Below are positions 2,041 through 57,367 of a stretch of 64,000 bases of DNA, in pieces. The translations under genes were made by a program, and so were the position numbers. Position 1 is the first letter of the stretch. The number at the start of each line of letters is the position of its first letter. The notes beneath the pieces were generated by a model. The model worked only from the letters and a program-made list of their open reading frames with translations. It did not search any database and was not told the DNA's origin. This stretch comes from Demequina flava (GTDB taxonomy: Bacteria; Actinomycetota; Actinomycetes; Actinomycetales; Demequinaceae), in NCBI RefSeq assembly GCF_000975035.1, contig NZ_BBRA01000001.1:1011184-1075183 (forward strand), written 5' to 3'.

Positions 2041-2823
2041 TTAGGCGCCGGCTCGAACCGGCTCGACGAGTGAGACGTGGCCACGCAGCGTGCGCGACCA
2101 TCGGTTGTGAGGCAGCTCGGGGTGGAGGGCCGCGAGCGCCGTGCAGTATTTGGAAACTTTGGATGGGCGCACGCCGTGGGCCCACAGCGCGCGGTCGACC
2201 TCTCCGGCCCGCGAGGCGGACTTCGTTTCGACGATCAACACGTCGCCAAAGGACGCCGCGCGGCCGTCCGTCGCAATCCCCTGGACCTGTGAGTCCACGG
2301 TGACCCGAGCATCGGCCGTCAGAAGAGTTGTCCGCATGTACCGGGTGGTGACCGCGGGCGTGAGCTCGGCTGCGGCTGCCGCGATCGCGGGGAAGCCGGA
2401 GACGAACTCGAAGGCCTCCCGGGGCAGGTCCGCATCCTCATCGACGTGCATGTCGAGGAACTCGCGGTGCTTCACGGTGTCGCCTGTGCGCGAGCGGAGC
2501 TTCACTTCGATTGCGTGGGTGTCCGTGTCGATGTAGGTGCGGGTGCGGACCTTGTAGCGGCGCGGACGCCGATGCGCCGCCGCGCGGTAGCAGTCCCAGC
2601 CCGGGGTGTCGTAGTAGGTGGACGCGTAGCGGAACGCGCGCGTGCCGTCGATCTCGAGCACGCGGGGTGCGGGCGCGAGAGACCCGACAACCAAGGCCCA
2701 GGTCCCGGGATCCACGAGGTACTTGCGGTCCACGCGCTGCTGGAGCGCGGCGGTCTCATTGATCTCCGACAGCGACACGGGCGCGAGGCCCTGTGCCCAT
2801 GGGAGGACCGATGCCGGGGTCAT
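2041..2823 (-). CDS. VTC domain (polyphosphate polymerase-like) protein
   Basis: A 260-residue cytosolic protein of the VTC/CYTH triphosphate-tunnel fold (PF09359). The family signature is clear: VDRKYLVDP near residue 31, the STYYDTP motif near 69, RRYKVRTRTY with clustered basic residues near 87, EVKLRSR near 106 and a late VETKSA strand. In yeast Vtc4 this fold makes polyphosphate from ATP. Bacterial stand-alone copies next to DUF4956 have no proven reaction, so polymerase activity is inference. The ATG overlaps the TGA of the upstream DUF4956 gene (ATGA, 2820-2823), indicating translational coupling. The 3' end is 15 bp from the lipoprotein start. A copy of the dispersed motif is at 2308-2317 inside the gene (TADAR). 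Confidence 0.85.
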   Translation of the reverse strand: MTPASVLPWAQGLAPVSLSEINETAALQQRVDRKYLVDPGTWALVVGSLAPAPRVLEIDGTRAFRYASTYYDTPGWDCYRAAAHRRPRRYKVRTRTYIDTDTHAIEVKLRSRTGDTVKHREFLDMHVDEDADLPREAFEFVSGFPAIAAAAAELTPAVTTRYMRTTLLTADARVTVDSQVQGIATDGRAASFGDVLIVETKSASRAGEVDRALWAHGVRPSKVSKYCTALAALHPELPHNRWSRTLRGHVSLVEPVRAGA

Positions 2824-3446
2824 CGTGCGCTCCCGGCTGCCACCGGTGCGGTGTGAGCCGTAGGGCGTAGGGCCGATGCTTGGGTCGCCTTGGCGCCGCT
2901 ACCTTCCCGCACCGCGTAGCGGACGTCGCACAGGGTGGTCTGCTGCACCAGGTCCGTCTTGCGAATCACGACGCGCTTGATGTCGGCGTCGAGGAGGTCC
3001 TCAAGCATGAGCGCGGCCTGGGTTTCCGTGCTCACTGCGCGGTCGAGCATCACCTGCTGAGTGCGGGCTGTCGAGAAGAGCTTAGGGCTGTCGCCCACGG
3101 CAATCGCGACCAGGAGGATGCCCATGAGGGACAGGCCCACCGCGCCGTTGATGCCGGGGAATCCGCCCAGGAGACCCAGCGCAATCGCGGTGAAGTAGTA
3201 GGCGATCTCCGAGTGGTCCATCTCGGTGGAGCGCAGGCGGATGATCGACAGCACCGCGAATATCCCGAGACCGAATCCGAGCGACACGTCCGCTGTGGCC
3301 ATCGCGTAGGTGACTCCCATGACGCCAACGTTGATCGACAGGAACGCGACGATCATGTCGCGGCGCCGGTGCCTGGGGAAGTAGAGGCCGAACACCAGCA
3401 CGGTGATGGCGATGAGGTCGGCGGCGATGAGTGCGTAGATGGACAT
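2820..3446 (-). CDS. DUF4956 membrane protein
   Basis: About 208 residues with four predicted membrane segments (roughly residues 4-25, 30-47, 50-67 and 90-120) followed by a soluble C-terminal domain of alternating charged strands. This layout and the core GIFAVLSIIRLRSTEMDHSEI fit DUF4956 (quoted core: GIFAVLSIIRLRS, then TEMDHSEI). DUF4956 proteins are nearly always encoded beside VTC-domain proteins, as here, and may pass a signal or product across the membrane, but no function is proven. The ATG at 3446 is chosen because GAGGTGA lies 7 bases before it; a GTG at 3455 would overlap that site. It is the first gene of a three-gene operon divergent from the two-component system. Confidence 0.82.
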   Translation of the reverse strand: MSIYALIAADLIAITVLVFGLYFPRHRRRDMIVAFLSINVGVMGVTYAMATADVSLGFGLGIFAVLSIIRLRSTEMDHSEIAYYFTAIALGLLGGFPGINGAVGLSLMGILLVAIAVGDSPKLFSTARTQQVMLDRAVSTETQAALMLEDLLDADIKRVVIRKTDLVQQTTLCDVRYAVREGSGAKATQASALRPTAHTAPVAAGSAR

Positions 3447-3516
3447 GTGAGTCACCTCGGAAGTTCAGGAGGCTCGACGGTCGAGCCGGGGTATGTCTCC
3501 ATAGAAGCGATCACGC

Positions 3517-3556
3517 CTGGGAACTGGCTGGGAGAGACGGCACAGGACCCTGGGAT
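3517..3556. promoter_or_regulatory. Candidate OmpR-type response-regulator box (three CTGGGA repeats)
   Basis: CTGGGAA at 3517-3523 and CTGGGAG at 3528-3534 are direct repeats 11 bp apart, the spacing used by PhoB/OmpR-type winged-helix regulators. A third CTGGGAT at 3550-3556 is in the same register, 22 bp further on. The block sits between the divergent DUF4956 operon and the response regulator gene, so it could control both. Binding is inferred from spacing and position only. Confidence 0.45.
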
Positions 3557-3567
3557 TGTCGTCTTGC

Positions 3568-3596: not shown

Positions 3597-3617
3597 CTCA
3601 GGTGCTTGACTGGTCTC

Positions 3618-12844: not shown

Positions 12845-14773
12845 ATGACCTACGCCGCGACCCTTGTGCTGATCCTGGCTGCCGGCATGGTGGCCCAGCT
12901 CATCGCGGCGCGGCTGCGCATCCCGGCGATCATCGTGCTGATCGCGGCCGGGCTCATCCTGGGCCCCATTTCCGGGATCATCATCATTCCGGGCGGGAAC
13001 GAAGAGGTCTCTGCCCTCATCTCGTTGGGTGTGGCTGTGGTCCTGTTCGAGGGGGCGATGGACCTACGCTTCAGCGAAATCACGCGCGTGAAGAAGGGCG
13101 TGAGGCGCCTCACCCTGTTCGGTCCACCCATCGCCATGTGCCTGGGGGCCCTCGCGGCGCATTACGTCGGCGACATTGAGTGGCCGGTGGCCTGGGTCTT
13201 GGGCGCACTTCTGGTCGTCACCGGGCCCACCGTGATCATTCCCCTGCTCCGCCAGGCTCGGCTCAACCAGGAATCCGCCTCCCTGCTGAAGTGGGAAGGC
13301 ATCATCAATGACCCCATCGGCGTCCTGCTCGCTTTCCTGACGCTGCAGTACTTTCTGATCGCCGATGCGGACATCGACCCGGACCTGCAAAATGTCGCCC
13401 AAGCGCTCGGAGTCGCCTCCGTCGTGGTGACCCTCGTAGGCGCCGTAATTACCGCCGTCGTGCTCGGAACGCTTGCGGGTTACGGCATCGGCCTGGTATT
13501 CCGGCGAGGCTGGGTCTCGGGCCACCTCAAGTCGCCGCTCCTCCTCGTGATGGTCCTGCTCGTGCACACGCTGTCGGACATTGTGGTCCACGAGTCGGGT
13601 CTTCTCGCGGTGACCATCATGGGCGTGATTCTCGGCAACATGAACCTGGCCGAGCGCGACCAACTCCTGGACTTCAAGGAGGGGTTGTCGGTCATCATCC
13701 TGTCCGCGCTGTTCATCATCATTCCGGCGCAGCTGGAAATTGAGCAGTTGATGCTAATCGACTGGCGAATCATCGCATTTGTCGTCGTTCTGATGGTCGT
13801 GGTGCGGCCGCTGACGGTTGCGCTTGTCACGATCAAGTCGCCGATTCGCTGGCAGGACCGCGTGCTCTTGGGATGGATCTCTCCGCGCGGAATCGTGGCG
13901 GCGGCCACGGCCGGTATTTTCGGCCCGGAACTCATCGAGGCGGGCTACGACGACGGCGACGTCTTTCTGCCCACTGTCTTCCTCGTCATCATCGTGACCG
14001 TCATCGTGCACGGATTCACGATTGGGCCGCTGTCGCGCAAGCTTGGGCTGTCCGCGGGTCCCGCCAACGGCCTGCTCATTGTGGGCGCGTCGCCCTTCTC
14101 GACGTCGTTGGCGGCCGCGCTCCAAAAGGCCAACGTTCCCGTGCTCGTCACCGACGTTTCCTATCAACGCCTACAGCCACTGCGAATGTCCTCGGTGCCC
14201 GTGTACGTGGGTGAGGTGCTGTCCGAGAACGGCGAGCGCCACATCGCGGACATCAGCCTCAGTTACTTGCTGTGCGCCTCGGACAACGACTACTACAACG
14301 CGCTGGTGAGCCGGTCGTACGGGCCAGACTTTGGCTATCACCGCACGTTCCAGCTGCCCACTCACGAGTCCTCTTCCGACGAGGAAAAGCGCGTCACGTT
14401 CCAGCGCCGCGGCTCGTACGCATTCGACGGCGAGTCCGACTACTTCACCCTCAACGACCGCGCGACGAACGGCTGGTCTGTTCACACGACAAAGATCACC
14501 GCGGACTTTGGGTGGGAGGACTGGCAGGCTCGCCAGCGCGAGCGTGATGTGGAGTGGATGCTCGTGGGCGATGTCTCGGCGGAGTTCGGGTTCCGCTTGG
14601 CCTCATACGACCAGTTCTTCTCCCCCGCGGAGGGCCACACGCTGCTGTACTTCGCTCCCGATCACTCCAAGCGCGACAGAGCTGCGGAGCGAGAGGCGGC
14701 CTCGGGCGCGGTACCCGCGGTCAAGAGGGCCGATGCTGGCTCGGCAAAGAGCGCTAGGTCACCTCAGGAGTAG
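12845..14773 (+). CDS. CPA-type Na+(K+)/H+ antiporter with C-terminal nucleotide-binding domain
   Basis: 642 residues. About 12-13 membrane segments fill residues 1-410; the ion-binding Asn-Asp pair is seen in GIINDPIGVLLAF near residue 157, and WISPRGIVAAATAGIFG near 345 is typical of NhaP-like carriers. Residues 415-500 (NGLLIVGASPFSTSL onward) resemble a TrkA-N/RCK nucleotide-binding fold, followed by a divergent soluble domain to about 610 and an Ala/Arg-rich tail. It exchanges a monovalent cation for protons across the cytoplasmic membrane. The tail contains a copy of the dispersed motif (14727-14737, RADAG). The gene is convergent with the DHA2 exporter; 80 bp separate them. Confidence 0.87.
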   Translation: MTYAATLVLILAAGMVAQLIAARLRIPAIIVLIAAGLILGPISGIIIIPGGNEEVSALISLGVAVVLFEGAMDLRFSEITRVKKGVRRLTLFGPPIAMCLGALAAHYVGDIEWPVAWVLGALLVVTGPTVIIPLLRQARLNQESASLLKWEGIINDPIGVLLAFLTLQYFLIADADIDPDLQNVAQALGVASVVVTLVGAVITAVVLGTLAGYGIGLVFRRGWVSGHLKSPLLLVMVLLVHTLSDIVVHESGLLAVTIMGVILGNMNLAERDQLLDFKEGLSVIILSALFIIIPAQLEIEQLMLIDWRIIAFVVVLMVVVRPLTVALVTIKSPIRWQDRVLLGWISPRGIVAAATAGIFGPELIEAGYDDGDVFLPTVFLVIIVTVIVHGFTIGPLSRKLGLSAGPANGLLIVGASPFSTSLAAALQKANVPVLVTDVSYQRLQPLRMSSVPVYVGEVLSENGERHIADISLSYLLCASDNDYYNALVSRSYGPDFGYHRTFQLPTHESSSDEEKRVTFQRRGSYAFDGESDYFTLNDRATNGWSVHTTKITADFGWEDWQARQRERDVEWMLVGDVSAEFGFRLASYDQFFSPAEGHTLLYFAPDHSKRDRAAEREAASGAVPAVKRADAGSAKSARSPQE

Positions 14774-16617: not shown

Positions 16618-16690
16618 AAAACCTACGGCCAGGGCCGCCCAAACTCCGAAACCCCGCCGTGTATGTACGGCCAGGGGAAAAGAAGGTTAG
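16618..16690 (-). repeat. Stop-codon-proximal hairpin repeat, copy 2
   Basis: Nearly the same layout as the copy at 56677-56746: ACGGCCAGGGC (16624-16634), a 20-base spacer, AACCCCGCCG, then GTATGTACGGCCAGGGG and AAAAG, ending at the stop codon of the DsbA-like gene (16687-16689). The gene-strand RNA reads CCCC-TG-GCCG, an 8-base loop, CGGC-GGGG, a GC-rich hairpin just after the stop, preceded by four T bases. Confidence 0.65.
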
Positions 16691-17355
16691 CCGGCTGCTG
16701 CTTGGGTCAAGATGTCCCGGTACTGCTCGGTTGCGGCCGCGCCGGGGATCCCGAAGCGCTCGCCGATGACGGTGAACGGCACGCCCGTGGCGCCCAGTTC
16801 CGTGGCCTGGCGCTGCTCCGCGAGCACCATGTCGGCGTGCTCATCGCTGGCCAGGACGGCCAGGGCAGCGTCGCGGTCCATGCCTGCGGCTGCGGCAGCA
16901 TCGGCCAGGTCGGAGGGGCTCGACAGGTCGAGCGCGCCCGAGAAGTGGCCAAGCTGGATCGCGTGGCGCACCACAAGACCGAGGTCTTCTGCGGCGGCGA
17001 CCAAGCGGTGCGCGTCCAGAGTGTTGGACACGGTGCGGTCCTCGACGAACGGCAGTCCGAGCTCCTCGGCCATGCCTGCGAGCTGCTCGTGCTGAGCGTG
17101 GAGGGTGTCGGCGTCGGATCCGAACTTGCGGCCCAGGTACGCCTGCACGGGCTCCGTGGTGGTGCGTTCGGGGTCCAGCTGGAAGGCGCGCGGGATGATC
17201 ACCACGGGCGCTTCGATCGAGTCGGCGGCGGCTACGAGGCGGGCTTCGCCGATGTAGCAATACGGGCACACGATGTCTGCCCATGCGTCGACGCGGACGG
17301 CGGAAATGGTCTGCTGAGTTTCAGTCACAGTGGGGCCAACGAGTGCGCCGGCCAT
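16687..17355 (-). CDS. DsbA-family protein (FrnE-like)
   Basis: About 222 residues. After a short leader, VRVDAWADIVCPYCYIGEARL gives the thioredoxin-fold strand and a CPYC-type CxxC motif; the helical insert and the late ELGATGVPFTVIGERFGIPGA (cis-Pro region GVPFTVIGERF) are typical of the FrnE branch of the DsbA family. There is no signal peptide, so it is a cytosolic oxidoreductase or isomerase-like protein. ATG at 17355 is used; a GTG at 17328 begins just before the conserved part and is a good alternative. The gene follows the GMC oxidoreductase by about 30 bp on the same strand and ends in a hairpin repeat. Substrate unknown. Confidence 0.82.
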   Translation of the reverse strand: MAGALVGPTVTETQQTISAVRVDAWADIVCPYCYIGEARLVAAADSIEAPVVIIPRAFQLDPERTTTEPVQAYLGRKFGSDADTLHAQHEQLAGMAEELGLPFVEDRTVSNTLDAHRLVAAAEDLGLVVRHAIQLGHFSGALDLSSPSDLADAAAAAGMDRDAALAVLASDEHADMVLAEQRQATELGATGVPFTVIGERFGIPGAAATEQYRDILTQAAAG

Positions 17356-17384: not shown

Positions 17385-19373
17385 CTAGAAAATGTCGCCC
17401 GGGTACCCGTCGTCGTCCTTCGATGCGCCCACCATGTCCGCCATCACCCGGTACGCGTTGGCGATCGTGGTGAGTACCGGTGAGGCACCACCGTTGGACA
17501 CGTGGGTCGCGGCATCGATCACGCGCACATTGCCGTGACCCCACACGCGCCCGACCGGATCGACCACCGACGCCGCAGGCGTGACACCCATGCGGGCCGT
17601 TCCCGCCTGATAGCGACTGACGACCGGCCCACCCGAGCCCGTGTGCGTATCAACGGGAACCACTTGGTTCGCCCCAGACTCCCGCAGCCAGTCCACGGCG
17701 CGCTCGCCCAGGAAGCTGCGGGTCCGCTCGTCCTCGGGGTGAAGATCACCGTGCAGAACGGGCTCCGGGATGCCCCACTCATCGGTGACGGTCGCTGACA
17801 AGGTGACCCTGGCATCGGCCGAGGGGACCTCATGCGCCGTACCCACGATGCGCTGCATACGCGGCAACAGCCGCGCCAACCGCGGCATCAGGTCTGTCCC
17901 GGACCACGGCAAGAGCCCCACGTGCTGGAGTTGGCGGAGGGCCGATGCTGGGGTCGGGACATAGTCATTGCTCAAGACTCCGCCGCCCACCACGGCGGGG
18001 TTGCCATGGCGGAAGTCGGAGGTGGCGATGCCGGCTCCGGGGCCTTCGAGGTCGCTGATGGCTTCTTCGAAAATGCCGATCGCGCCCACCTGAGCCTGTC
18101 CCTGGAGGTAGCGGCCAACTTGGTCGTAGCGATTGCCGATTCCGGTGGGCTCACGGTCGCTGCGGCTGGACAACAGGATGCGAGCGCTCTCGACGGCGCC
18201 GGCTGCGATCACGACCTCGTCCGCGTCGATGCGCCGCTCCCACAGCCCGGTCTCGTCGAGGCCGCGCACGAGCACCCCGGACACGGACCCATCACTGCGG
18301 GTCGTGAGGTGCGCGGCGCGGGCGGAAAGGATGAAGCTCGCGCGTCCGGTGCGGGCGGCCCGCCACAGCGCGGTGTTCTGCGAGCCGGCTTTGGCGCCCA
18401 CGGGACAGGCGAAGCCAAGGCATTGGGAACAGCGCACGCACGCTGCGCGGCCGCGATAGGGCTCGGAGTTGATGAGCATTGGCACGGGGAGGGTGCGCCA
18501 GCCGAGTGAGTCGGCACCGGCGATCAACCGCGCTGCGGGGCGTGTGCGCGGAAGTGGGGGCAGTGGGTAGGGAACGGAGCGGTGGCCCTCGGTGTCGCGC
18601 GGGCCGGGGGCGCCGCTGACGCCCCACTCGAACTCGGCGTGGGCGTAGTACGGCTCCATCTCGTCGTATGTGACGGGCCAGTCCGCCTGCGCAGACCCCT
18701 CTGGCACGCCGTACGTCGAGGCCATCGTGAAGTCTTGGGGCGCGAACCGCCAGGCTTGGGCACCGTAGACGCGGCTTCCACCGCCAAGTCCAAAGGCACT
18801 GGCACCCCAGCGCGGGTCCGAGGGGCCGATGCTCTCTTCGGTGTTCCCGACGCGCTTGTGGGTCGAGGGCGATTGCAAATGGTCGCGCGCGAGGTCTCCC
18901 GTTGTGGGAGCACCGCCGCGTTCAATCACGAGCACGGACCGGCCAGCCTCGGCCAACTCCTGCGCGGCCACTCCGCCCCCAGCGCCGGACCCGATGACGA
19001 TCGCGTCGTAGCGAGCCATGAGTTCCCTGCGCGTCACGACAGCTGCAGGCACTTCGTCAGGCATGTCCGAGCCCGAGGGCTTGCCGTCAAAGCCGGTGCG
19101 CCATCCCAGCGCCTTCCAAGTCGCGGGCTGGGTCACGGTGATCTGGCCCACCAGCCCGGCGAACCACTGGGCGTCGCGGTTGTCGCGCATCTCCACCAGG
19201 TCGGCTGGTGTGCCTTGGCGCGCAAGTCTCGCGAGGCGTTCCCGCCAGGCGGGGTGATCGTGGTCGAGGACCATCTGGAGCCGGCGCAGGACCTCGGGCG
19301 AGTCCGACGAGGGCCATGGGCCTCCCGGCAGGACCGCAGCCACCCAGGCGGCGAGGTCGGCATCGACTGTCAT
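17385..19373 (-). CDS. GMC-family FAD oxidoreductase
   Basis: 662 residues. Residues 1-110 form a helical extension like the small subunit of gluconate 2-dehydrogenase. The FAD-binding motif is IVIGSGAGGGVAAQELAEAG (about 126-145). The GMC C-terminal end has HTGSGGPVVSRY, GTARMG and THVSNGGASPVLTTIANA, which hold the active-site His/Asn pair region. Around residue 315 a Cys-rich stretch CVRCSQCLGFACPVGAK is seen, as in the GMC branch with an extra Cys cluster. It should oxidise an alcohol, sugar or sterol-like substrate, passing electrons to an unknown acceptor. No signal peptide. It is probably cotranscribed with the DsbA-like gene. Two copies of the dispersed motif lie inside it (17939, 18823). 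Confidence 0.87.
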   Translation of the reverse strand: MTVDADLAAWVAAVLPGGPWPSSDSPEVLRRLQMVLDHDHPAWRERLARLARQGTPADLVEMRDNRDAQWFAGLVGQITVTQPATWKALGWRTGFDGKPSGSDMPDEVPAAVVTRRELMARYDAIVIGSGAGGGVAAQELAEAGRSVLVIERGGAPTTGDLARDHLQSPSTHKRVGNTEESIGPSDPRWGASAFGLGGGSRVYGAQAWRFAPQDFTMASTYGVPEGSAQADWPVTYDEMEPYYAHAEFEWGVSGAPGPRDTEGHRSVPYPLPPLPRTRPAARLIAGADSLGWRTLPVPMLINSEPYRGRAACVRCSQCLGFACPVGAKAGSQNTALWRAARTGRASFILSARAAHLTTRSDGSVSGVLVRGLDETGLWERRIDADEVVIAAGAVESARILLSSRSDREPTGIGNRYDQVGRYLQGQAQVGAIGIFEEAISDLEGPGAGIATSDFRHGNPAVVGGGVLSNDYVPTPASALRQLQHVGLLPWSGTDLMPRLARLLPRMQRIVGTAHEVPSADARVTLSATVTDEWGIPEPVLHGDLHPEDERTRSFLGERAVDWLRESGANQVVPVDTHTGSGGPVVSRYQAGTARMGVTPAASVVDPVGRVWGHGNVRVIDAATHVSNGGASPVLTTIANAYRVMADMVGASKDDDGYPGDIF

Positions 19374-19514: not shown

Positions 19515-19952
19515 ATGAGCGAGGAACGATCGTTCGAGGAGCGGCAGACCGCGGCTGGCCTCGCCATTGGTCTTGTAGCCGTGCTCGCCTACGTCGCGGT
19601 TCTGACGGTGCGCGCGCTGACCGACGACCTGCCCCTCACGGAGGTCGCGTGGCAGGGGCCGATGCTGGTGTGCGTCGGCGTTGGCGGCGTAGCTTACGCA
19701 CTGCTCTTCCTGGCGTTGTGGTTGCGCCAGCGCGGCGAGACGCTCACCGATGAGCGCGACGAGCACATCCGCGCTGCGGGCGAAGTTTCGGGAGCGTCAC
19801 TGTCCGGACTCGGCGTGCTCGCCGCACTGGTGATGCTCGCGCTCGACGTCGACACCTTCTGGATCGCCAACGTCCTGTTGCTGGTCACCTTCGCCGGCGC
19901 TGTGGCCCAATCAGCAACCGTGCTCGGCGCATACCGTGGAGGAATCGCATGA
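19515..19952 (+). CDS. Four-segment membrane protein, first of an XRE operon
   Basis: 145 residues with four membrane segments (about 13-33, 47-69, 93-111 and 115-136) and a charged cytosolic loop QRGETLTDERDEHIRAAG between the second and third. The next gene encodes a similar protein (shared DTFWI-N and YRGG/YRRG ends), so the two are likely paralogues that pair in the membrane. This pattern, small membrane proteins followed by a 70-residue XRE regulator, is common in Gram-positives; the function is not known. I do not assign a family number. The ATG follows CCAGGAGACACC, and its stop overlaps the next start (ATGA). Confidence 0.75.
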   Translation: MSEERSFEERQTAAGLAIGLVAVLAYVAVLTVRALTDDLPLTEVAWQGPMLVCVGVGGVAYALLFLALWLRQRGETLTDERDEHIRAAGEVSGASLSGLGVLAALVMLALDVDTFWIANVLLLVTFAGAVAQSATVLGAYRGGIA

Positions 19953-20767: not shown

Positions 20768-21463
20768 ATGACCACCACCGACACCGTGCGGACTGCCCGC
20801 GGGACCGGGCTCGCCTATCTGGGCCTCGCCCTCACCGGCATGGCCGGCTTCCTCATCATTCGCCCTCAACTCTTCACGGATTCGCCGGCGGAGACTCTGG
20901 CCAACCTCAGCGAGAAGCCCGAACTCGCAGCTGCCGCAGTCGGGATTGAGATGGCCATCGTGCTCACGCAGGCGCTCGCGGCCGTGTGGTTCTACAAGCT
21001 CTTGCACGACATCCGGCCCGTGGCAGCGTTCGCGACCGCAACATTTGGACTGATGAACGCAGCCGCGATCATGGCGTCGGGCGTGTTCATGGCGACGGCA
21101 GTGGCCATTGCGGGCGACCCTTCGATCGTGAGCGGGGCCGATGCTGCGGGCACCATCGGCGTTCTCGCGCACCTGAGCGATGCGGCCTGGGGCCTGGGGG
21201 GCTTGTTCTTTGGGCTGTGGCTGATCCCGATGGGGTGGGCCGCGGTCACGACGCGCCGCTTCCCGGTTGTGCTGGGATGGACCCTGATAGTCGGAGGGGT
21301 TGGCTACGTGCTGTCGGCCTTCGCGGGATGGGGATTGGACGGAGCGCCCGGGTGGTTCGTCGAGGGCTTGGCTTTCCCTGCAACACTCGCCGAGTTTTGG
21401 ATGATCGCCTACCTACTGTCCGTTGGCATTCGGCCATCTACCGACCAGGAGAACCGCTCATGA
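20768..21463 (+). CDS. DUF4386 membrane protein
   Basis: 231 residues with six predicted membrane segments, starting with GTGLAYLGLALTGMAGFLI and containing the family-like stretch AATFGLMNAAAIMASGVFMA, GLFFGLWLIPMGW and the final LAEFWMIAYLL. This matches DUF4386, a membrane family of unknown role. The ribosome site CCAGGAGACACC is the same as that of the XRE operon's first gene, although the sequence further upstream differs. The last codons overlap the start of the MDR reductase gene (ATGA at 21460-21463), so both are made from one mRNA. The pairing suggests a membrane protein and a cytosolic reductase in one response; no substrate is evident. Confidence 0.85.
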   Translation: MTTTDTVRTARGTGLAYLGLALTGMAGFLIIRPQLFTDSPAETLANLSEKPELAAAAVGIEMAIVLTQALAAVWFYKLLHDIRPVAAFATATFGLMNAAAIMASGVFMATAVAIAGDPSIVSGADAAGTIGVLAHLSDAAWGLGGLFFGLWLIPMGWAAVTTRRFPVVLGWTLIVGGVGYVLSAFAGWGLDGAPGWFVEGLAFPATLAEFWMIAYLLSVGIRPSTDQENRS

Positions 21464-22482
21464 GCACCATTCCAGAAACGATGACCGCCGCTGTCCAACC
21501 CGGCTACGGACCGGTCAGCGGCGTCGCCGCGGCCACACGAACCGTCCCCTCACCCGCCCCGGGTCAGGTGCTCATCCGCGTCGAAGCGGCAGCTCTCAAC
21601 CCAGCCGACGTCTTCACCATCACGGGAACTCCGGCCGTGGTCCGGGCGTCGAAGGGAGTTCGTAGCCCCAAGCAGCCGGTCCCGGGCTCCGACGCCGCGG
21701 GCGTGGTCGTCGCGGTTGGGGAAGGCGACTCCGAATGGAACGTAGGCGACCGGGTCTTCGGCATGGCATCGGGCGCGCTCGCCGAGTACGCCTTGTCAAA
21801 GGTCGCCTGGCTCGTGCCAACTCCCGATGGGGTCTCATCGGAATCGGCGGCAGCCTCCGTGATGGTGGGCCTCACCGCGCTCCACGGCCTGCGCCGCGCG
21901 GGCCTCGACCCGTGGCCCACCACCGGCGAAGACCAGCCGCTCGCAGGTAAGCGAGTACTCGTCATCGGTGCCGGCGGCGGGGTGGGCTCGGCAACGGTGC
22001 AGATCGCCGCGGGCGCCGGAGCGCATGTCACGGGTGTCTGTTCCGCTGGTGTAGCCGATGCCGTGGCCGCCCTGGGCGCCCACCGCACCGTGGACTATGC
22101 GACGGAGGATGTCCTCGCGTTGGAGGGCGGGTTTGACCTCATTCTCGACAACGTTGGGGCGGTCCCAATGCTTGACCTCGAACAGCTCGTCGCCCCAAGC
22201 GGCATCCTGTTCCCGAACTCGGGCATCCCGGGACCAGACGGCGGTGCCATCACTCGCGTCGCCAAGGCCAACTGGCACGGAAAGGTGCGTCGCCGCCGGA
22301 TCGGCACGTTCCTGTCGACGGTCATCCAAAGCGACATGCAGCTGGTTGCGGACCACCTGGCCGACGGAAGTTTCACCCCGCTGGTGGACTCACGCTGGAA
22401 CCTGACCCAAGCATCGGCCGCATTGCAACACATTGCCGACGGGCACGTCCACGGGAAGGTTGTCGTTACTCCGGGACGGTGA
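21460..22482 (+). CDS. Zinc-free MDR oxidoreductase (quinone reductase-like)
   Basis: 340 residues of the medium-chain reductase family. The N-terminal GroES-like barrel carries GQVLIRVEAAALNPADVF and PGSDAAGVVVAVG; the NADPH-binding Rossmann fold has RVLVIGAGGGVGSATVQIA (GGGVGS near residue 170). Catalytic zinc Cys/His residues are absent, so it is of the quinone reductase/enoyl reductase type. NADPH is the likely cofactor. The ATG overlaps the DUF4386 stop. The frame is open upstream, but that part lies antiparallel to nothing useful and overlaps DUF4386 in another frame. Near the end (22410-22419) there is a dispersed motif copy. The last 17 bp overlap the convergent membrane-protein gene. 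Confidence 0.87.
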   Translation: MSTIPETMTAAVQPGYGPVSGVAAATRTVPSPAPGQVLIRVEAAALNPADVFTITGTPAVVRASKGVRSPKQPVPGSDAAGVVVAVGEGDSEWNVGDRVFGMASGALAEYALSKVAWLVPTPDGVSSESAAASVMVGLTALHGLRRAGLDPWPTTGEDQPLAGKRVLVIGAGGGVGSATVQIAAGAGAHVTGVCSAGVADAVAALGAHRTVDYATEDVLALEGGFDLILDNVGAVPMLDLEQLVAPSGILFPNSGIPGPDGGAITRVAKANWHGKVRRRRIGTFLSTVIQSDMQLVADHLADGSFTPLVDSRWNLTQASAALQHIADGHVHGKVVVTPGR

Positions 22483-25905: not shown

Positions 25906-26042
25906 CCCGTCCGGGCTGGCGGGCAGGAACTGACTCGCGACGAGGCCCCGACCCTGGGCCAGAACTGGTGAGTTGGTCGCCTTGCTTGACCCCAGCATCG
26001 GCCCGCTAGGATAGGGGTCTGCGGTGCCGCTGGCGCCGCAAC

Positions 26043-26116
26043 GCGGGTGTAGTTCAATGGTAGAACTTCAGCTTCCCAAGCTGATAGCGCGGGTTCGATT
26101 CCCGTCACCCGCTCCA
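26043..26116 (+). tRNA. tRNA-Gly (anticodon CCC)
   Basis: A full cloverleaf: acceptor GCGGGTG pairs with CACCCGC, D stem GTTC/GAAC, anticodon stem TCAGC/GCTGA around the loop TTCCCAA (anticodon CCC, reads GGG), T stem around TTCGATT. CCA is encoded (26114-26116). It stands alone between the epimerase and UDP-glucose pyrophosphorylase genes. Confidence 0.95.
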
Positions 26117-27570: not shown

Positions 27571-27597
27571 CGCCAGCATCGGCCCGCGGCCCGCTCA

Positions 27598-31037: not shown

Positions 31038-31143
31038 GGCACAAGCGTACGCGTCGCCCACGACACCACTGCACGGCTGTGGACGGATAGCCAGCCTTGC
31101 CCCAGCATCGGCCCGTGTCACTGGCCACCGCTAGCGTGAAGTC

Positions 31144-39639: not shown

Positions 39640-41704
39640 ACGCGAGCCGGGTTCCTAGCCACGGGGCGAGGGTACGAGCGAACGTCTCGGTCATGTGGCT
39701 GCTCGTGTCCCGGTAGACCACCGCGCCGGATATGACAGTCGCGCACTTGGAGTCGCACAGCGACGGATTCACGTCCAAGTACCGCACCTCTGAAACCGTG
39801 TCGGCGGCGGCGCCGAGAACTGCAGGCCGCGCAAGCGCCTCGGTTGCGTCACGCTGGCAGTCTGGTTCGGGCCCTGTCGAGGCAGCCAGACAACGTAGTT
39901 GCTCCTGGTCCATTTGTGGCGTGTCCTCGAGAACTACGACGGAGCCAACTACCTCCAGCAAGTTTTCCCAGCGCTCGGCATAGCCATCGACAGCCAACGC
40001 CTCTGATCGCGATGAGTCCTCCGCGAACTCATGCGCCCGAGTCGCGGACGTCACCACCAGGTCGGGCTTCGACCGAGCGATGCGCTGTAAAACTTCGTCG
40101 TTCCACTCCACGCAACTGTCGCGGTGGTCATCGTTCGCGAGTTGGCTAGCGGCGTCTGTGAACGGACAGGCCGCCTTAAAGTAAACAGTCAGGTTCCAGT
40201 TCTGTTGAAGGGCGACCTGTTCGATGGCCGGAAACCATTGGGCTGCATGAGAGTCACCAACCAAGACCACCGAAGCATCGGCCGTGTTCTCGCTCGCACC
40301 ATACTCACAAGTCTTGACCTCGCTCTGGACCGGCGATGTGCGGCACTCGTCGTCGTATACCGGCGACACGTCGTCCTCAACGCCGGTGCGAGCTGGCTCG
40401 ACATCGGCCCACTCCACCGTGGAACAGTCCAGTTCCTCTGTCCATGATTGCGCACCCAGGCACGCCTCCTGGTTCGCAGCAAGCGGTCTCGCATCGCCGT
40501 CGTCAGCCCGTTGTGCAAGAACCCATGCGGCTGTCACAACGGTGGCCACGGCGGCCGCGGCAGCCACGAAAGTGCGCCACGTGACTGGCCCGCGTCCATG
40601 CCTCAGTCGCTCTTCGACGAGACGATGCGTGGCTGCTGCCATGACGAGTGTGAGCACCAAGATGGCTACGAGCGTGATCGCATCAGCATCCCGCTTCAGG
40701 GCGAAAGGAACCAGCACGATCAGTGGCCAATGCCATAGGTACGCCGTGTAGGACACTGCACCTAACCACTGAACGCCGGGCAACCGATAGAGACGTCCAA
40801 GAGGACCGACATGGCGGTCCCCCGCTGCTATCACCGCAACTGTTGCGAGCACAGGCACCAGCGTCACTGGCCCAGGAACTGCCGTAGCCGAATCGAATTC
40901 CCAGAACACAAACAGAAGAACTGAAATTCCAGCTATTCCGAGTGTGGGTCGCCACCACTGCGCCAGCAATCTCGACCTGTGGTCTCGGGCCTCATCGCGA
41001 GACCGCATTGCGAGTGCGGCAAGCAGGGCGCCAGCGGCGAACTCCCACGCACGTGCTGTTGTGACGAAGTAAGCTGCCGCGTCGTGCTGGTCGATGAGCA
41101 CCCATGCGTGCGCAAGTGAAGCTACCCCCACGAATGCGATGGCGGGCACCACGATGCGATGACCACTCCTGTCCATCGCTAACAGCGCGACCAAGAGCAC
41201 CGGCCATGCGAGGTAGAACTGCTCCTCTACAGAGAGTGACCAGAAATGCTGCACAGGCGACGCGGCGCCGTCAGCTGCGAGGTAGTCGACTGCGCTCGCC
41301 GCGAGCGCCCAGTTTTCGACTATCAGTGCCGAGGCAGCAACCTCGCGCAGGAAACTTTCCCAGTACGCGGCGGGCACCACGAGGAAGACTGCGATCACGG
41401 TCGCCGTGAGAACCGTAATCGCCGACGGCAAGAGCCGCCGAATGCGCCTGCCCCAAAATGACGGAAGGTTGATGTTGCCGTGTTTGCCGTGTTCTCGTAT
41501 GAGATGGCCGGTGATGAGGAATCCCGAGACAACGAAGAAGACATCGACCCCGATGTATCCGCCCGGCAGTGCATCGGGCCAAAGGTGATAGACGATGACA
41601 GCGCCCACGGCGATCGCCCGGAGGGCCTGAATCTCAGTACGTACCCGAGTGCTTCCCCGCGGGGCGGAGACCGTACGCACCTCGGCCGGTGTGGCTGTCA
41701 CCAT
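39614..41704 (-). CDS. OafA/YrhL-type O-acyltransferase with C-terminal SGNH domain
   Basis: 696 residues. Residues 20-370 are an acyltransferase-3 membrane domain with about ten segments: EIQALRAIAVGAVIVYHLWP (with the catalytic-type His of VYHLW), GGYIGVDVFFVVSGFLITGHL and HFWSLSVEEQFYLAWPVLL. Residues 430-690 are an extracytoplasmic SGNH-like domain with VVLVGDSHAAQW (Ser nucleophile in GDSHA). Such proteins O-acetylate sugars of surface polymers, taking acetyl from cytosolic donors. Here the target is likely the nonulosonic acid polymer. It is the last gene of the seven-gene operon; its ATG overlaps the DUF6716 stop by 7 bp. A motif copy (40274-40283) lies in the SGNH part. Confidence 0.9.
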   Translation of the reverse strand: MVTATPAEVRTVSAPRGSTRVRTEIQALRAIAVGAVIVYHLWPDALPGGYIGVDVFFVVSGFLITGHLIREHGKHGNINLPSFWGRRIRRLLPSAITVLTATVIAVFLVVPAAYWESFLREVAASALIVENWALAASAVDYLAADGAASPVQHFWSLSVEEQFYLAWPVLLVALLAMDRSGHRIVVPAIAFVGVASLAHAWVLIDQHDAAAYFVTTARAWEFAAGALLAALAMRSRDEARDHRSRLLAQWWRPTLGIAGISVLLFVFWEFDSATAVPGPVTLVPVLATVAVIAAGDRHVGPLGRLYRLPGVQWLGAVSYTAYLWHWPLIVLVPFALKRDADAITLVAILVLTLVMAAATHRLVEERLRHGRGPVTWRTFVAAAAAVATVVTAAWVLAQRADDGDARPLAANQEACLGAQSWTEELDCSTVEWADVEPARTGVEDDVSPVYDDECRTSPVQSEVKTCEYGASENTADASVVLVGDSHAAQWFPAIEQVALQQNWNLTVYFKAACPFTDAASQLANDDHRDSCVEWNDEVLQRIARSKPDLVVTSATRAHEFAEDSSRSEALAVDGYAERWENLLEVVGSVVVLEDTPQMDQEQLRCLAASTGPEPDCQRDATEALARPAVLGAAADTVSEVRYLDVNPSLCDSKCATVISGAVVYRDTSSHMTETFARTLAPWLGTRLASTLVSAGS

Positions 41705-49235: not shown

Positions 49236-50772
49236 CAGTCGGGCCGATGCTCGGGCCCGGTCGCGGTTCCACGTTTGGCTGGGGTCGCGGTTCCTGTGGC
49301 GCTTCGAACGTGGGACGCGCATATGTCCGGGTGGCCTGGCGGCCCGCAGTCGATTTTGTGAGGGCCTCGCGGGCGGCGACGACCGACGATGCGGCTTCGA
49401 GATCCATGCTCGCGCCCACGTGACGGTAGGTCTCAATCCCGTGCGCACTAATGGGCCCATCGCCAAGCGCTGCGATGTCTGGGTCGGAGCTCGCCCTCAG
49501 GTCGGCATTGACGTACGTGACGTTGGGCGCAGCGTTGTCCGGAAGCCCATCCGACCCTGGCACCGGGTCTTGGACGTTCGCGATCACGACTGTGTCAACG
49601 TCGGGATTGTTGGGGACGTCTCCATGTGGTGACCCGACGAGCACCATGTTGGTGATGTTGAGCTGCGAGGTGACTTCCTCACACGCCGCAACAGAGGCCG
49701 CGGCGGCAGCACCCTGGCTGTGACCAACGAGGGTGATGGGAGCATCCGGCGGCAGACCCGCTTCGAGCAGGGCGTTGGCAACGAGTTGCGACAGGTCGTT
49801 GAGGTTGTCTACCTTGCTGAAGTCGTCGGTCGTCATCTGCGTGAAGTTGCCGTGCCAGTCGCCTGTTGCCCCGTCGCTCAACCCGTGGTCTTCGGTGCCG
49901 GGGATGTACACGAAGACGCTCGCATCCGCCCCTTCTCCATAGACGTCATAGGCAATCTCGCCATGTGGTGAGCTCGACACCTCACCGAGGTTGCCCATCA
50001 TGCTCTCGAACCCCGCGAGTTCGCTCGGCCCGGCCACAGGCTCTGCAAACTCCACGCCCTCCATCCGGGGCTCACCGGCCCAGTACTCTCCCGCCTCAAA
50101 CACACCTCTAAGTCCCGTCGCGGCGGCGTCGTACATACTCGGCCCTCCGAGCGCGGCCGAGAGCCCCCAGATTGGGGGTGTCCCGACGGGAGTCCGAGTG
50201 AGCCCCAGCACCCCCGTGACGGTGGCACGGTTCACGACCCCCGTCACGGCAGGCGCACGGTCCGGCATGAGGGCACTCCCTACGCGGTCCTTGCCTGTGA
50301 TCGTCCCCAACGCACCCAAGGGCGTCGTCTTCCACGCACCCGCCGCGAGAACTCGCCCAACCCACAGCTGGGCTCCCAGAATGTCCCCGAAGTACCTACC
50401 GGCCGCGCCCCACAAGGACAGTCCTGCCGAGGCTGCCCGCTCGGCCTCCTCATACCCCGCTGCAACAACTCGGAGGCCCTCCGCGCAGTCCGTCAGCGCA
50501 GCATCCAGCGCCTCACACGAATCCACGCCATAGCGAGCATCCTCCACCGCGGTCTTGGCACGATTGACGTCGTCCCAGACGGTCGGCACCGCCTGAGTCT
50601 GCGCGAAGAGCAGCGACGCGTGCGCGATCCGCAGACGCAGAGAACACTCCGAGAGAAGACCGGCGCAGGTGTCCACAATGACCGCGGCCGCAGTGAGATC
50701 TGTCGTGACCGCCTGTGTCCCGCCGGCCCCACCCGAGACCGCAAGCGGAACGGCCTGTTCCTCGCTGCTCAT
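49207..50772 (-). CDS. Alpha/beta hydrolase with N-terminal helical domain
   Basis: 521 residues. Residues 1-190 are helical and Ala-rich, of the WXG-like type (AAVIVDTCAGLLSECSLRLRIAHASL, core DTCAGLLSECSLR). Residues 270-470 are an alpha/beta hydrolase with the nucleophile elbow ITLVGHSQGAAAAASVA (Ser in GHSQG) and a late ISAHGIETYRHVG with the likely His. The tail (about 490-521) is disordered, Pro/Arg-rich. No signal peptide. The ATG overlaps the stop of the small helical gene upstream (ATGA), so they are a coupled pair. Such pairs of a WXG-like protein and a hydrolase are known around type VII secretion in actinobacteria; export is inferred. The tail holds motif copy 49241-49251. Confidence 0.72.
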   Translation of the reverse strand: MSSEEQAVPLAVSGGAGGTQAVTTDLTAAAVIVDTCAGLLSECSLRLRIAHASLLFAQTQAVPTVWDDVNRAKTAVEDARYGVDSCEALDAALTDCAEGLRVVAAGYEEAERAASAGLSLWGAAGRYFGDILGAQLWVGRVLAAGAWKTTPLGALGTITGKDRVGSALMPDRAPAVTGVVNRATVTGVLGLTRTPVGTPPIWGLSAALGGPSMYDAAATGLRGVFEAGEYWAGEPRMEGVEFAEPVAGPSELAGFESMMGNLGEVSSSPHGEIAYDVYGEGADASVFVYIPGTEDHGLSDGATGDWHGNFTQMTTDDFSKVDNLNDLSQLVANALLEAGLPPDAPITLVGHSQGAAAAASVAACEEVTSQLNITNMVLVGSPHGDVPNNPDVDTVVIANVQDPVPGSDGLPDNAAPNVTYVNADLRASSDPDIAALGDGPISAHGIETYRHVGASMDLEAASSVVAAREALTKSTAGRQATRTYARPTFEAPQEPRPQPNVEPRPGPSIGPTVSPSTPSSR

Positions 50773-51140: not shown

Positions 51141-52568
51141 GTGACTTCTTGGAACCCCGCAGCCCTGACTGACTTCACGACCATTGAGCCCGCCGTGGCC
51201 CTGACGCCGCTGGATGGCCGTTACCGCGGCGCCGTGGCACCCCTGGTCAACCACCTCTCCGAGCCGGCGCTCAACCGCGCCCGCCTCCACGTTGAGGTTG
51301 AGTGGTTCATCCACCTGTGCGAGACCGGCGCAGTCCCCGGAGCCCGCGCCCTCACCGCAGACGAGACCGCACTCCTACGCGCCATTCCAGCCGACTTCGA
51401 CGGTGCCGGCATCGCCGAGCACGCCGAGATCGAGAAGGTCACCGTCCACGACGTCAAGGCCGTCGAGTACTTCATCAAGCGCCGCATCGAGGGCACCTCG
51501 CTCGAGCCGCTCAGCGAGCTCGTCCACTTCGCCTGCACGTCGGAAGACATCAACAACCTGTCCTACGCACTCATGGTGAAGGGCGCCGTCGAGCAGGTCT
51601 GGGCTCCCGCCGCTGCCTCCCTGGTGAGCGATATCGCGGACCTGGCCCGAGCATCGGCCGGTCAGCCCATGCTGTCGCGCACCCACGGCCAGACCGCGAC
51701 CCCCACCACGCTCGGCAAGGAGCTGGGAGTGCTCGCGCACCGCCTGAACCGCCAGCTCACCCGCGTGGCCAAGCAGGAGTACCTGGGCAAGATCAACGGC
51801 GCGACCGGCACGTACGGCGCCCACACCGCCGCAGTCCCCGGGACCGACTGGGTCGAAGTGTCGCGCACGTTCGTCGAGGGCCTGGGCCTCACCTGGAACC
51901 CGCTGACCACCCAAATCGAGAGCCACGACTGGCAGGCCGAGCTGTACGCGGACGTCGCGCGCTACGGCCGGATCCTGCACAACCTCGCGACGGACGTATG
52001 GACCTACATTTCGCTGGGCTACTTCGCGCAGGCAGCGGCGAAGGGTTCGATCGGCTCGTCTGCGATGCCGCACAAGATCAATCCCATCCGCTTCGAGAAT
52101 GCCGAGGCCAACCTCGAGATCTCCGCGGCGCTCTTCGACACGCTGGGCTCCACGCTCGTCACCAGCCGCCTGCAGCGCGACCTCACGGACTCCACGTCGC
52201 AGCGCAACATCGGCGTCGCATTCGGCCACTCGCTGCTCGCGATCGACAACGTCCGGCGCGGCCTGGGCACGCTCAGTGTTAATGGCGCGGCGCTGGACGC
52301 CGACCTCGACGCCTCGTGGGAGGTGCTCGCGGAACCCATCCAGTCCGCGATGCGCGCCGCCGCCGTCGCGGGTGTGCCCGGTATGGAGAACCCCTATGAG
52401 CGCCTCAAGGAGCTCACGCGCGGCCACGTGATCGATGCGGGCGCGATCCGCACCTTTGTCGACGGCCTCGAGCTGCCTGCGGAGACCAAGGAACGCCTGG
52501 CCGCACTCACGCCGGGCACCTATGTGGGCCTCGCGGAGCAACTTGTGGCGCGCTACCTCAGCGTCTAG
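51141..52568 (+). CDS. purB: Adenylosuccinate lyase
   Basis: 475 residues of the fumarase/aspartase superfamily. Marks: ALTPLDGRYRGAVAPL at the start, FACTSEDINNLSYAL near residue 133, SRTHGQTATPTTLGKEL near 175 (catalytic His), and the signature GSIGSSAMPHKINPIRFENAEAN (short core SSAMPHKINPIRFEN near 305, with the catalytic Ser loop). It carries out two steps of purine synthesis, in IMP and AMP formation. The GTG at 51141 starts the conserved part; the frame before it overlaps other genes. A dispersed motif copy lies within (51650-51659, ARASAG). A large hairpin follows the gene. Confidence 0.95.
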   Translation: MTSWNPAALTDFTTIEPAVALTPLDGRYRGAVAPLVNHLSEPALNRARLHVEVEWFIHLCETGAVPGARALTADETALLRAIPADFDGAGIAEHAEIEKVTVHDVKAVEYFIKRRIEGTSLEPLSELVHFACTSEDINNLSYALMVKGAVEQVWAPAAASLVSDIADLARASAGQPMLSRTHGQTATPTTLGKELGVLAHRLNRQLTRVAKQEYLGKINGATGTYGAHTAAVPGTDWVEVSRTFVEGLGLTWNPLTTQIESHDWQAELYADVARYGRILHNLATDVWTYISLGYFAQAAAKGSIGSSAMPHKINPIRFENAEANLEISAALFDTLGSTLVTSRLQRDLTDSTSQRNIGVAFGHSLLAIDNVRRGLGTLSVNGAALDADLDASWEVLAEPIQSAMRAAAVAGVPGMENPYERLKELTRGHVIDAGAIRTFVDGLELPAETKERLAALTPGTYVGLAEQLVARYLSV

Positions 52569-52639: not shown

Positions 52640-53323
52640 TCACGCGGTGACGACGCCGTCGCCAACACTCACCACGCCGGGCCGGTCGATCCCTAAGTAG
52701 ACCGCCGCCTTCAGGTCGCGCGTTCCGCCCAGCGCCTTAAGCCACGCGGTGCGCCCGTCCACCCCGTCCTGCTCCTGGTCAATAGTCCGACACCGGGTGA
52801 CCCGCTTGATGGTGTGAAAGACGACGTCGCCGATGCGCACTTCGCCGTCCCAGGCCTCTTCCTCGAAGGGGCGCTCGGTCTCGACTACGAGGTTCACCCG
52901 GAGACGTCGGGGGTCGGCATCGACGCCTAACTCGCGAGCGCACCAGTCCAATGTGGCCGTGCCGATCACTGACACTGGGCTGTCGTCAAAGTGCGGCACG
53001 TCGCTCTCCTGCGCCACCCTCACGTCCGCGTCAAAGTCTGCGGTGAGTGCAGCATCGGCCCTGGTGTCCCCCGCAAACCACGTACCTGCCGGACCCGCGA
53101 TTTCGACTCCCCCGGCCGTGGTGTGGGCCGCGTACTCGAAGATGCGGTCGCGGCGCACAAACCTGCTCCCGTTCTTGCCGCACGCCAGGCGGTCATCCCC
53201 GTCGCGCACCGCCCACGCCCGGTCACCCACCAACCCGCGCGCGTCGATCTCGACGGACTCGAGCGACTCGCCGCCCATCGCTTTGACGGGGTAGCGGCGG
53301 ATGCTCACAACAGTGGTGGTCAT
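52640..53323 (-). CDS. MOSC-domain protein
   Basis: 227 residues: an N-terminal MOSC_N barrel part (VVSIRRYPVKAMGGESL and DARGLVGDRAWAVRD) and the MOSC domain (about 110-225) with RLRVNLVVE, GDVVFHTIKRVTRCRTIDQ (the Cys of the family near residue 183). MOSC domains handle molybdenum cofactor sulfur or reduce N-hydroxylated compounds. No partner reductase is adjacent. The ATG at 53323 (MTTTVVSI) is chosen over an upstream in-frame ATG. A dispersed motif copy is inside the gene (53051-53061) and another lies just upstream (53336-53346). Confidence 0.88.
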   Translation of the reverse strand: MTTTVVSIRRYPVKAMGGESLESVEIDARGLVGDRAWAVRDGDDRLACGKNGSRFVRRDRIFEYAAHTTAGGVEIAGPAGTWFAGDTRADAALTADFDADVRVAQESDVPHFDDSPVSVIGTATLDWCARELGVDADPRRLRVNLVVETERPFEEEAWDGEVRIGDVVFHTIKRVTRCRTIDQEQDGVDGRTAWLKALGGTRDLKAAVYLGIDRPGVVSVGDGVVTA

Positions 53324-53381
53324 GATTCGAGCGTAGGGCCGATGCTCGGGGCCAGTCACGTACTGCGCTTACAGTGTCGGG

Positions 53382-56680: not shown

Positions 56681-56746
56681 CCCCCTTTTCCCCTGGCCGT
56701 ACATACTCGGCGGGGTTGGGGCGGTTCAGTTGCCCTGGCCGTCAGT
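56677..56746 (+). repeat. Stop-codon-proximal hairpin repeat, copy 3
   Basis: Starts at the stop codon of the flippase-like gene and runs CTTTTCCCCTGGCCG, TACATACT, CGGCGGGGTTGGGG and later GCCCTGGCCGTC. In inverted orientation it matches 16618-16690 over about 55 bases. The hairpin CCCC-TG-GCCG...CGGC-GGGG is the same. It is read by the flippase-like gene as a 3' structure. Confidence 0.65.
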
Positions 56747-57267
56747 TTGCGTCGGGCCGATGCTGGCTCGCGACGACGTGGAACACATGCCAATGCTTGG
56801 GCCCGCTTGCGGACAAACCGTCCACGTCCTCTTCCTCCCCAGTCGAGAATGTCCAGCCCTGAGCACATGTCACGCACCTGCGCTTCGCTGTGGACGGTGA
56901 CGTCGTGACGTCCCGCCCACGAGTCACGCTCCCCAAACAAGTCGACGGCAAGGATGCCCCCTGGTAGGAGCGCGCCTGTCATCCGCGTCCACAGCGCCGC
57001 GAGCGCGTTGGCGGGCAACCACGGGAGCGTGTACGCGGAGTGGATCAGGTCTGCACGGGAAGCTCGAGCCGCTCCCGGAGATCCGCTACCTGCGTCGCGA
57101 CGCTGGCGGCTAGTTCCGGTGGGGTGCGCTCCCGCACCAATATCGAGAGCGGTGCGCCCCTCGCCGGGTCCGGCGTGTTCCACGACGGTGGCACACAAGT
57201 CGCGCGGCGACACGCGGCTCGCTTGCGACGCGTTGTAGTCCAACCAATGCCGGGTCGCCGCGTCCAT
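56742..57267 (-). pseudogene. Broken SAM-dependent methyltransferase
   Basis: Parts of a class I methyltransferase are visible but in different frames. MDAATRHWLDYN and TALDIGAGA (SAM loop, near 57135) are in one frame; about 57050-57135 reads better in another frame (TPPELAASVATQVADLRERL). DLIHSAYTLPWLPANALAALW and GGILAVDLFGERDSWAG return to the first frame. After a run of four C at 56837-56840 the family-like end (EEEDVDGLSASGPKHWHVFHVVAS) is found only one frame off. The SAM-binding part is also shorter than usual. Real decay is likely, although a sequencing error in the C run cannot be excluded. The end carries a motif copy (56754-56764). Confidence 0.65.
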
Positions 57268-57367
57268 GCGTTCAGCCTAGGCGCGCGCAGGGCCGATGCT
57301 CGGGGCGCCAACGCGGTCGATGACCACTAGGAGGGTGGTGGCGTCTGCCCTGTACCGCCCCGCAAGT

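Follow-up and report, generated by a model that had tools for sequence, protein, structure and literature searches.

An obvious question raised by this stretch of 64,000 nucleotides from Demequina flava (contig NZ_BBRA01000001.1, positions 1,011,184 to 1,075,183; the window in what follows) is why one short word should recur in it so often, in both orientations, between genes as well as within them. Our data show that the word belongs to the whole genome and that Demequina (Actinomycetota, Micrococcales, Demequinaceae) carries several clade-associated variants, or dialects, of it. From these sequence comparisons we consider it probable that the motif serves as a DNA uptake sequence, by which cells of this genus would recognise their own DNA in natural transformation.

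A strict word in the window and throughout the genome

In the window the 10-mer GGCCGATGCT occurs exactly 22 times, 11 times on each strand, with 0.26 copies expected and a maximum of 2 in 100 dinucleotide shuffles. A further 5′ G precedes 15 of the 22 copies; the numbers of copies, per strand and with the extra G, are those given in an earlier note on this DNA. The longer 17-mer GGGCCGATGCTNGGGKC, with up to three mismatches allowed, has 33 sites against 3.9 expected. By simple gene calls made for this analysis, 16 of the 22 copies of the 10-mer lie in genes and six between them, as follows (strand in brackets; the peptide is the reading in the gene):

2308..2317 (-), in gene 2041-2823 (-), Ala-Asp-Ala
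2871..2880 (+), full GGGCCGATGCTNGGGKC, in gene 2820-3446 (-), Ala-Ser-Ala
14728..14737 (+), GGG form, in gene 12845-14773 (+), Ala-Asp-Ala
16897..16906 (-), in gene 16687-17355 (-), Ala-Asp-Ala
17940..17949 (+), full 17-mer, in gene 17385-19373 (-), Ala-Ser-Ala
18824..18833 (+), GGG form, in gene 17385-19373 (-), Ser-Ile-Gly
19657..19666 (+), GGG form, in gene 19515-19952 (+), Gly-Pro-Met-Leu
21136..21145 (+), GGG form, in gene 20768-21463 (+), Ala-Asp-Ala
22410..22419 (-), in gene 21460-22482 (+), Ala-Ser-Ala
25994..26003 (-), full 17-mer, intergenic, ahead of tRNA-Gly at 26043
27575..27584 (-), GGG form, intergenic, convergent genes on either side
28273..28282 (-), in gene 27598-28494 (-), Ala-Asp-Ala
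31104..31113 (-), GGG form, intergenic, divergent genes on either side
31308..31317 (+), in gene 31144-32271 (+), Ala-Asp-Ala
33218..33227 (-), GGG form, in gene 32276-33727 (-), Ala-Asp-Ala
40274..40283 (-), in gene 39614-41608 (-), Ala-Asp-Ala
49242..49251 (+), GGG form, in gene 49207-50772 (-), Ser-Ile-Gly
51650..51659 (-), in gene 51141-52568 (+), Ala-Ser-Ala
53051..53060 (-), GGG form, in gene 52640-53323 (-), Ala-Asp-Ala
53337..53346 (+), full 17-mer, intergenic, divergent genes on either side
56755..56764 (+), GGG form, intergenic by our calls; within open reading frame (ORF) 56677-57267 (-) if this is a gene
57291..57300 (+), full 17-mer, intergenic

The 16 genic copies are read as Ala-Asp-Ala (nine), Ala-Ser-Ala (four), Ser-Ile-Gly (two) and Gly-Pro-Met-Leu (one), and the copy at 56755 would give a fifth reading, Gln-His-Arg, only if ORF 56677-57267, which is absent from our gene calls, is a gene.

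The excess is real and extends to the whole genome. In the 2.55 Mb of the D. flava assembly (three contigs) exact GGGCCGATGCT is present 395 times (199 and 196 by strand) and the reversed word twice, and in a sample of 464 kb, consisting of the window and 20 spaced stretches, GGCCGATGCT is the top 10-mer by excess, with 152 copies against 10.6 expected under a fifth-order Markov model. The whole-genome count on which the earlier note would have its claim stand or fall thus comes out clearly in favour of the claim, both against the reversed word and in the ranking of all 10-mers of the sample. Might it simply reflect codon or peptide bias? In the sample 106 of the 116 coding copies fall into two alanine-rich readings (Ala-Asp-Ala 74, Ala-Ser-Ala 32), as such a bias would have it, with Gly-Pro-Met-Leu (5), Ser-Ile-Gly (4) and the fifth frame, Gln-His-Arg (1), making up the five readings already reported from the window. 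When synonymous codons are shuffled within each gene, however, with every protein and the per-gene codon usage preserved, a mean of 2.55 and at most 7 coding copies (20 shuffles) are found instead of 116, and intergenic copies are denser still.

The word is also strict. Single-base changes in the core GGCCGATGC (positions 2–10 of GGGCCGATGCT) leave 0–4 coding 11-mers as against 50, and this near-total loss of copies on any core change indicates that some factor requires a strict 9-base core. The two outer positions are loose, coding copies having G 50, C 43, T 16 and A 7 at position 1 and T 50, C 14, G 7 and A 2 at position 11. Past about 15 positions the flanks have little sequence in common and the sites are thus not copies of a longer repeat, which argues against a dispersed mobile element, while a restriction-modification word is difficult to reconcile with a motif that is over-represented and non-palindromic. 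These three explanations, bias in codons or peptides, a mobile repeat and restriction-modification, are therefore extremely unlikely even when taken together. At least four other Demequina records (L036, L069, L087 and L099) carry the 17-mer among the matches listed.

Position, orientation and spacing of the sites

Between genes the motif is enriched. In the D. flava sample 35 of the 152 copies (23%) are wholly intergenic, with 10% of the DNA being non-coding by our gene calls, and the intergenic share is raised in eight of the nine other motif-bearing genomes sampled (20–56% versus 7–11% non-coding), which amounts to a 2- to 6-fold enrichment in nine of the ten genomes. Density is highest between convergent genes in eight of the ten, a peak that rests on 0–12 such sites in each. 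It is this peak that would be expected of some other signal, e.g. one for transcription end or one acting in RNA; that the motif is such a signal is nevertheless very unlikely, since 116 of the 152 10-mer copies in D. flava are genic, in both orientations, and inverted neighbours at most 40 bp apart are few (5 among 235 cores).

Polarity with respect to replication, as judged from GC skew and from mixing within stretches rather than from a mapped origin, is absent both in D. flava (77 copies with and 75 against the skew, which is small at no more than 0.036 per 20 kb) and in ten genomes pooled (402:401). Inside single stretches orientation is mixed, if anything more evenly than by chance (chi-square 56.3, 91 degrees of freedom). 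The earlier note had held the equal orientation in the window against Chi sites and FtsK-orienting polar sequences (KOPS), and this argument now extends to the sampled genome and nine relatives.

A Chi-like signal, i.e. a word in unwinding DNA at which a nuclease-helicase of the RecBCD, AddAB or AdnAB type would turn from degradation to recombination, deserves consideration all the same. Chi words are over-represented and vary between lineages; they are read in one direction, have a leading-strand bias in E. coli and, in the known cases, are shorter than the Demequina motif. E. coli K12 has 1008 copies of Chi in 4.64 Mb where 151 are expected (PMC1939737; sources cited by PMC number stand here for excerpts of these papers). 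This is about 217 per Mb, similar to the density of the Demequina word (155 per Mb when counted as the 11-mer, 328 per Mb as the 10-mer), and both words are genome-wide, non-palindromic and lineage-specific. Unlike Chi, however, the Demequina word is longer, has no strand polarity and is enriched between genes, which makes a Chi-like role decidedly unlikely.

Along the chromosome, the sites are not clumped. Counts per 20 kb gave no sign of clumping in any of the seven genomes tested (p 0.125 or more), the test for D. flava drawing on its 20 spaced stretches. In genome G013 the counts are even more regular than Poisson (variance/mean 0.24), and an exponential distribution fits the spacing of 92 sites on contig C2 (Kolmogorov–Smirnov p 0.73).

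Dialects across the genus Demequina

Forty-four Demequina genomes fall into a GGCCGATGC class (18 genomes), a GGACGATGC class (16), a CCCGACGCTG class (2) and a remainder in which the motif is weak or absent (8), with class thresholds set by eye and with two of the genomes being 85–88% and G063 just 50% complete. GGCCGATGC is present 584–2018 times in its 18 genomes and 68–664 times in the remaining 26; the counts of CCCGACGCTG are 663 in G009, 209 in G011 and at most 51 in the others. For GGACGATGC, with 929–1864 copies in 16 genomes, the reversed word is a poor control (4–25 copies, where the 28 non-dialect genomes have 49–275 of the word itself), and this class was therefore assigned by the contrast between genomes.

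The dialects follow a shared plan, i.e. a 9-bp core, one variable base, SN and GG. By k-mer analysis of sampled stretches, the form is GGGCCGATGCC in G036, CGGCCGATGCG in G013, G034 and G015, GGGACGATGCG, often with an extra G ahead, in G025, G024 and G006, and GCCCGACGCTG in G009, while in G008 and G035 a mixed base follows the GGCCGATGC core. The downstream GG is common to the samples of G000, G036, G013, G034, G035, G025, G024 and G009 and is weak in that of G008. For G001, a plain k-mer search of 220 kb found no strong dialect, and comparison with synonymous shuffles gave a weak GCCGACGCT-like excess (AGCCGACGC 20 versus 4.9, AGCGTCGGC 21 versus 6.0). G021 carries both main cores (664 copies of GGCCGATGC and 1294 of GGACGATGC) and is possibly a genome in transition.

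A ComEC tree that took in 30 of the 44 genomes groups the dialects by clade, with 5 changes as against 13.3 when labels are shuffled and none of 200 shuffles as low. The GGACGATGC class consists there of one clade of eight genomes and, apart from it, of G004 with G060, and the weak genomes appear at three positions. Outside the genus, the extended word of GGCCGATGC type does not rise above background in any of 274 genomes of the order, including one of a sister genus, in a count that covered this dialect and not the other two; the largest number is 7, in a genome of 7.2 Mb.

These results bear on the idea that the motif is bound by a nucleoid protein or chromosome organiser, with a specificity that would have drifted between clades. 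Hundreds of strict, non-polar copies, genic and intergenic alike, would suit such a protein. MatP, SlmA and Noc, however, have their sites in zones near the origin or the terminus, unlike the unclumped counts along the sampled chromosomes, and swapping some 900–1900 sites per genome to another dialect would be hard to account for without a drive, for instance biased uptake. We thus regard an organiser site as unlikely.

How stable are individual sites? Where homologous DNA of motif-bearing genomes was aligned, 24 of 108 cores persist, the rate for composition-matched 9-mers being 10.3% (Fisher p 0.0003, with pairs counted both ways and hence not independent); between D. flava and G036 it is 5 of 9. 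In comparisons with genomes without the respective dialect 0 of 19, 0 of 18 and 0 of 16 cores are kept, with controls at 11, 12 and 7%, a difference that is not significant at these numbers. Sites are therefore somewhat retained yet quickly replaced. Of the conservation of positions in relatives that the earlier note had called for, the excess over control is there, but most cores are not kept.

Genes for a type IV pilus and for DNA import

An uptake sequence would need a machinery for DNA import, and the D. flava genome has genes for one. A type IVa pilus cluster lies in the stretch L141 (contig C2, 220001-240000), flanked by the shikimate dehydrogenase and chorismate synthase genes:

L141 13454-15115, PilB, below the NCBIfam cut-off
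L141 11883-13325, PilT, above the NCBIfam cut-off
L141 10654-11949, PilC
L141 10129-10599, PilA
L141, in the cluster, two further proteins with an N-methylation motif (631 and 226 residues)
L141, in the cluster, a protein of 523 residues without a family match, read as PilX-like from its N-terminus
L141 5194-5979, prepilin peptidase
L141 4046-5107, PilM
L141, after PilM, two proteins at the places of PilN and PilO, without a match over the cut-off

The PilV-like protein of the cluster is below the NCBIfam cut-off, and comEA adjoins comEC elsewhere in the genome (stretch L238). Across the genus, ComEC was found in 43 of 44 genomes (the one without it is an 85% complete genome), a prepilin N-methylation motif in 44 of 44 and PilT over the cut-off in all 23 sampled. 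Since all three are near-universal in the Demequina genomes searched, no contrast between genomes with and without the motif emerges from them: the import machinery is present but by itself no predictor of the motif.

Three side observations concern these genes. The ComEC match of G026 is split in two, with an internal TGA (C1:423579-424363); here, as for the likewise split match of G009 (see below), the gene may be broken or the assembly wrong. The second pilin of the cluster (L141 8206-10104) corresponds, by eye, to an ORF of about 600–760 residues in some Demequina and to a far shorter one in others, again by eye with no clear tie to dialect. Finally, an isolated small pilin (L305 1186-1590, near position 1215777 of contig C3 of D. 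flava) adjoins an ORF (1763-3073) for an apparent large surface protein; considered as a candidate ComP, this pilin is small and acidic and, with the N-methylation motif alone, bears no ComP sign.

A DNA uptake sequence as the favoured reading

A word that is strict, asymmetric, non-polar, unclumped, tolerated in genes, enriched between them and diversified into clade dialects has the signature of an uptake sequence. What is known of this class, i.e. over-representation, equal orientation, intergenic enrichment and clade dialects, is found in Demequina, as are a type IV pilus with a retraction ATPase and ComEC, with ComEA examined in D. flava. The earlier note had left the choice between an uptake-like and a nucleoid-protein site; the dialects, the pilus and ComEA/ComEC genes and the unclumped density favour the former, as far as genome sequences can tell. 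We infer from them that Demequina takes up DNA, that it would prefer tagged DNA and which protein would read the tag.

If so, the type IVa pilus would bind extracellular double-stranded DNA with a preference for tag-bearing fragments, PilT would retract the pilus, ComEA and ComEC would pass one strand into the cytoplasm, and this strand would recombine with its homologue. Fragments with the tag would enter and recombine more frequently than those without it, and this bias in uptake (molecular drive) would let tags build up throughout the genome, evenly on the two strands and unclumped; intergenic DNA would accept them most readily and, within genes, they would settle in the least costly readings. 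A shift in the specificity of the reader would then gradually convert the whole genome and so give rise to clade-specific dialects. How a dialect could change at around a thousand sites or more is difficult to see unless some process spreads them, as biased uptake would; Maughan, Wilson and Redfield (2010) reportedly found that biased uptake spreads sites.

Several findings weigh against an uptake sequence. Eight of the 44 genomes are in no strong class (G001, G003, G005, G007, G012, G017, G027 and G032), and two of these, G001 and G003, have the pilin motif, PilT and ComEC yet a weak motif or none. Conversely, the motif is strong in G009 though two frames share the ComEC match of this genome (C1:2039413-2040200), possibly by a sequencing error. 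PilT is over the cut-off in 81 of the 274 genomes of the order outside Demequina, in which the GGCCGATGC-type word is absent (other words were not sought there). Intergenic enrichment is missing in G035 (3 of 41 copies), and turnover of sites is fast, retention being about twice that of the control. A basic ComP-like pilin was not found among the five pilin-like proteins of D. flava, in a comparison that included no structure or fold search; these five proteins and ComEA are all acidic past residue 60 (isoelectric point 4.1–4.6).

How does the putative Demequina system compare with known ones? The DNA uptake sequences (DUS) of the Neisseriaceae act through a retractable type IV pilus and import of the ComEA/ComEC type and are read by the minor pilin ComP. 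Eight DUS dialects have been described, with a distribution consistent with phylogeny (PMC3630211), and Demequina likewise has a short word in many copies per genome with several phylogeny-following dialects. Its host belongs to the Actinomycetota, however, and its word is unrelated to the DUS, GCCGTCTGAA (PMC6370729). Nor is it related to the uptake signal sequence (USS) of the Pasteurellaceae, AAGTGCGGT, which is also short and has two dialects (PMC12616744). The cores of these words are CTG for DUS and GCGG for USS (PMC12616744); the Demequina cores GGCCGATGC, GGACGATGC and CCGACGCTG do not share CTG, just CCGACGCTG ending in it, and do not have GCGG, the GG block in Demequina sitting three bases past the core. 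In Haemophilus and Neisseria the uptake words are not palindromic and are commoner than expected in non-coding DNA; for H. influenzae and N. gonorrhoeae, respectively, 65% and 35% are in reading frames, and about 10% form inverted repeats (PMC1939737). Within the Actinomycetota, Micrococcus luteus is transformed by means of Tad/Flp pili and ComEA/ComEC (PMC6370729), i.e. like Demequina it combines ComEA/ComEC with a type IV filament, which in Demequina is of type IVa; the excerpt of that paper mentions no uptake sequence for M. luteus.

By analogy, the motif is best read as part of an uptake system that resembles those of DUS and USS, through which two Gram-negative families recognise and take in their own kind of DNA, but would have evolved independently. 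On balance we lean, if only somewhat, towards a broader proposal, in which uptake sequences would have evolved independently a third time and, in Demequina, for the first time in a Gram-positive phylum. The word would be bipartite, its receptor unlike ComP, and its dialects (at least three cores, and more at the adjacent base) would bar gene exchange between species; on the ComEC tree, GGACGATGC would have appeared, or been acquired anew, on two occasions. In the part of the open-licence literature examined, no report of an uptake sequence in Demequina or Actinobacteria was found, most subscription papers lying outside this search. If true, the proposal would supply a third, convergent example, from a Gram-positive genus that has several dialects and of which dozens of species have been sequenced; one could there ask why uptake specificity evolves and put molecular drive to the test in a fresh lineage. 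It would also make surface proteins of a new, sequence-reading class worth looking for, and adding the right tag to DNA could allow transformation of the Demequina group.

Other repeats

A second dispersed element, CCCCGCCGNGTATGTACGGCCAGGGGAAAAGGGGG, was noticed in 13 copies in the 464 kb of D. flava, 12 of them intergenic by our calls and 11 of these 12 at most 100 bp from the 3′ end of a gene. Copies are located as follows:

16635-16704 (+), CCCCGCCGNGTATGTACGGCCAGGGGAAAAGGGGG element, window
56663-56732 (-), CCCCGCCGNGTATGTACGGCCAGGGGAAAAGGGGG element, window
L139, L144-L149, L154 and L155, further CCCCGCCGNGTATGTACGGCCAGGGGAAAAGGGGG elements

Samples of ten other Demequina genomes contain no copy of GGCCGTACATAC, and at the Rfam gathering score the two window copies of CCCCGCCGNGTATGTACGGCCAGGGGAAAAGGGGG have no match. 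On the strand of the gene, the element has a predicted fold around GGCCG-UACAUAC-N-CGGC. Finally, in L164 (20 kb of G017) 11-mers of TTTCACGTGAAAC occur 6–7 times, perhaps as an operator or a local repeat.

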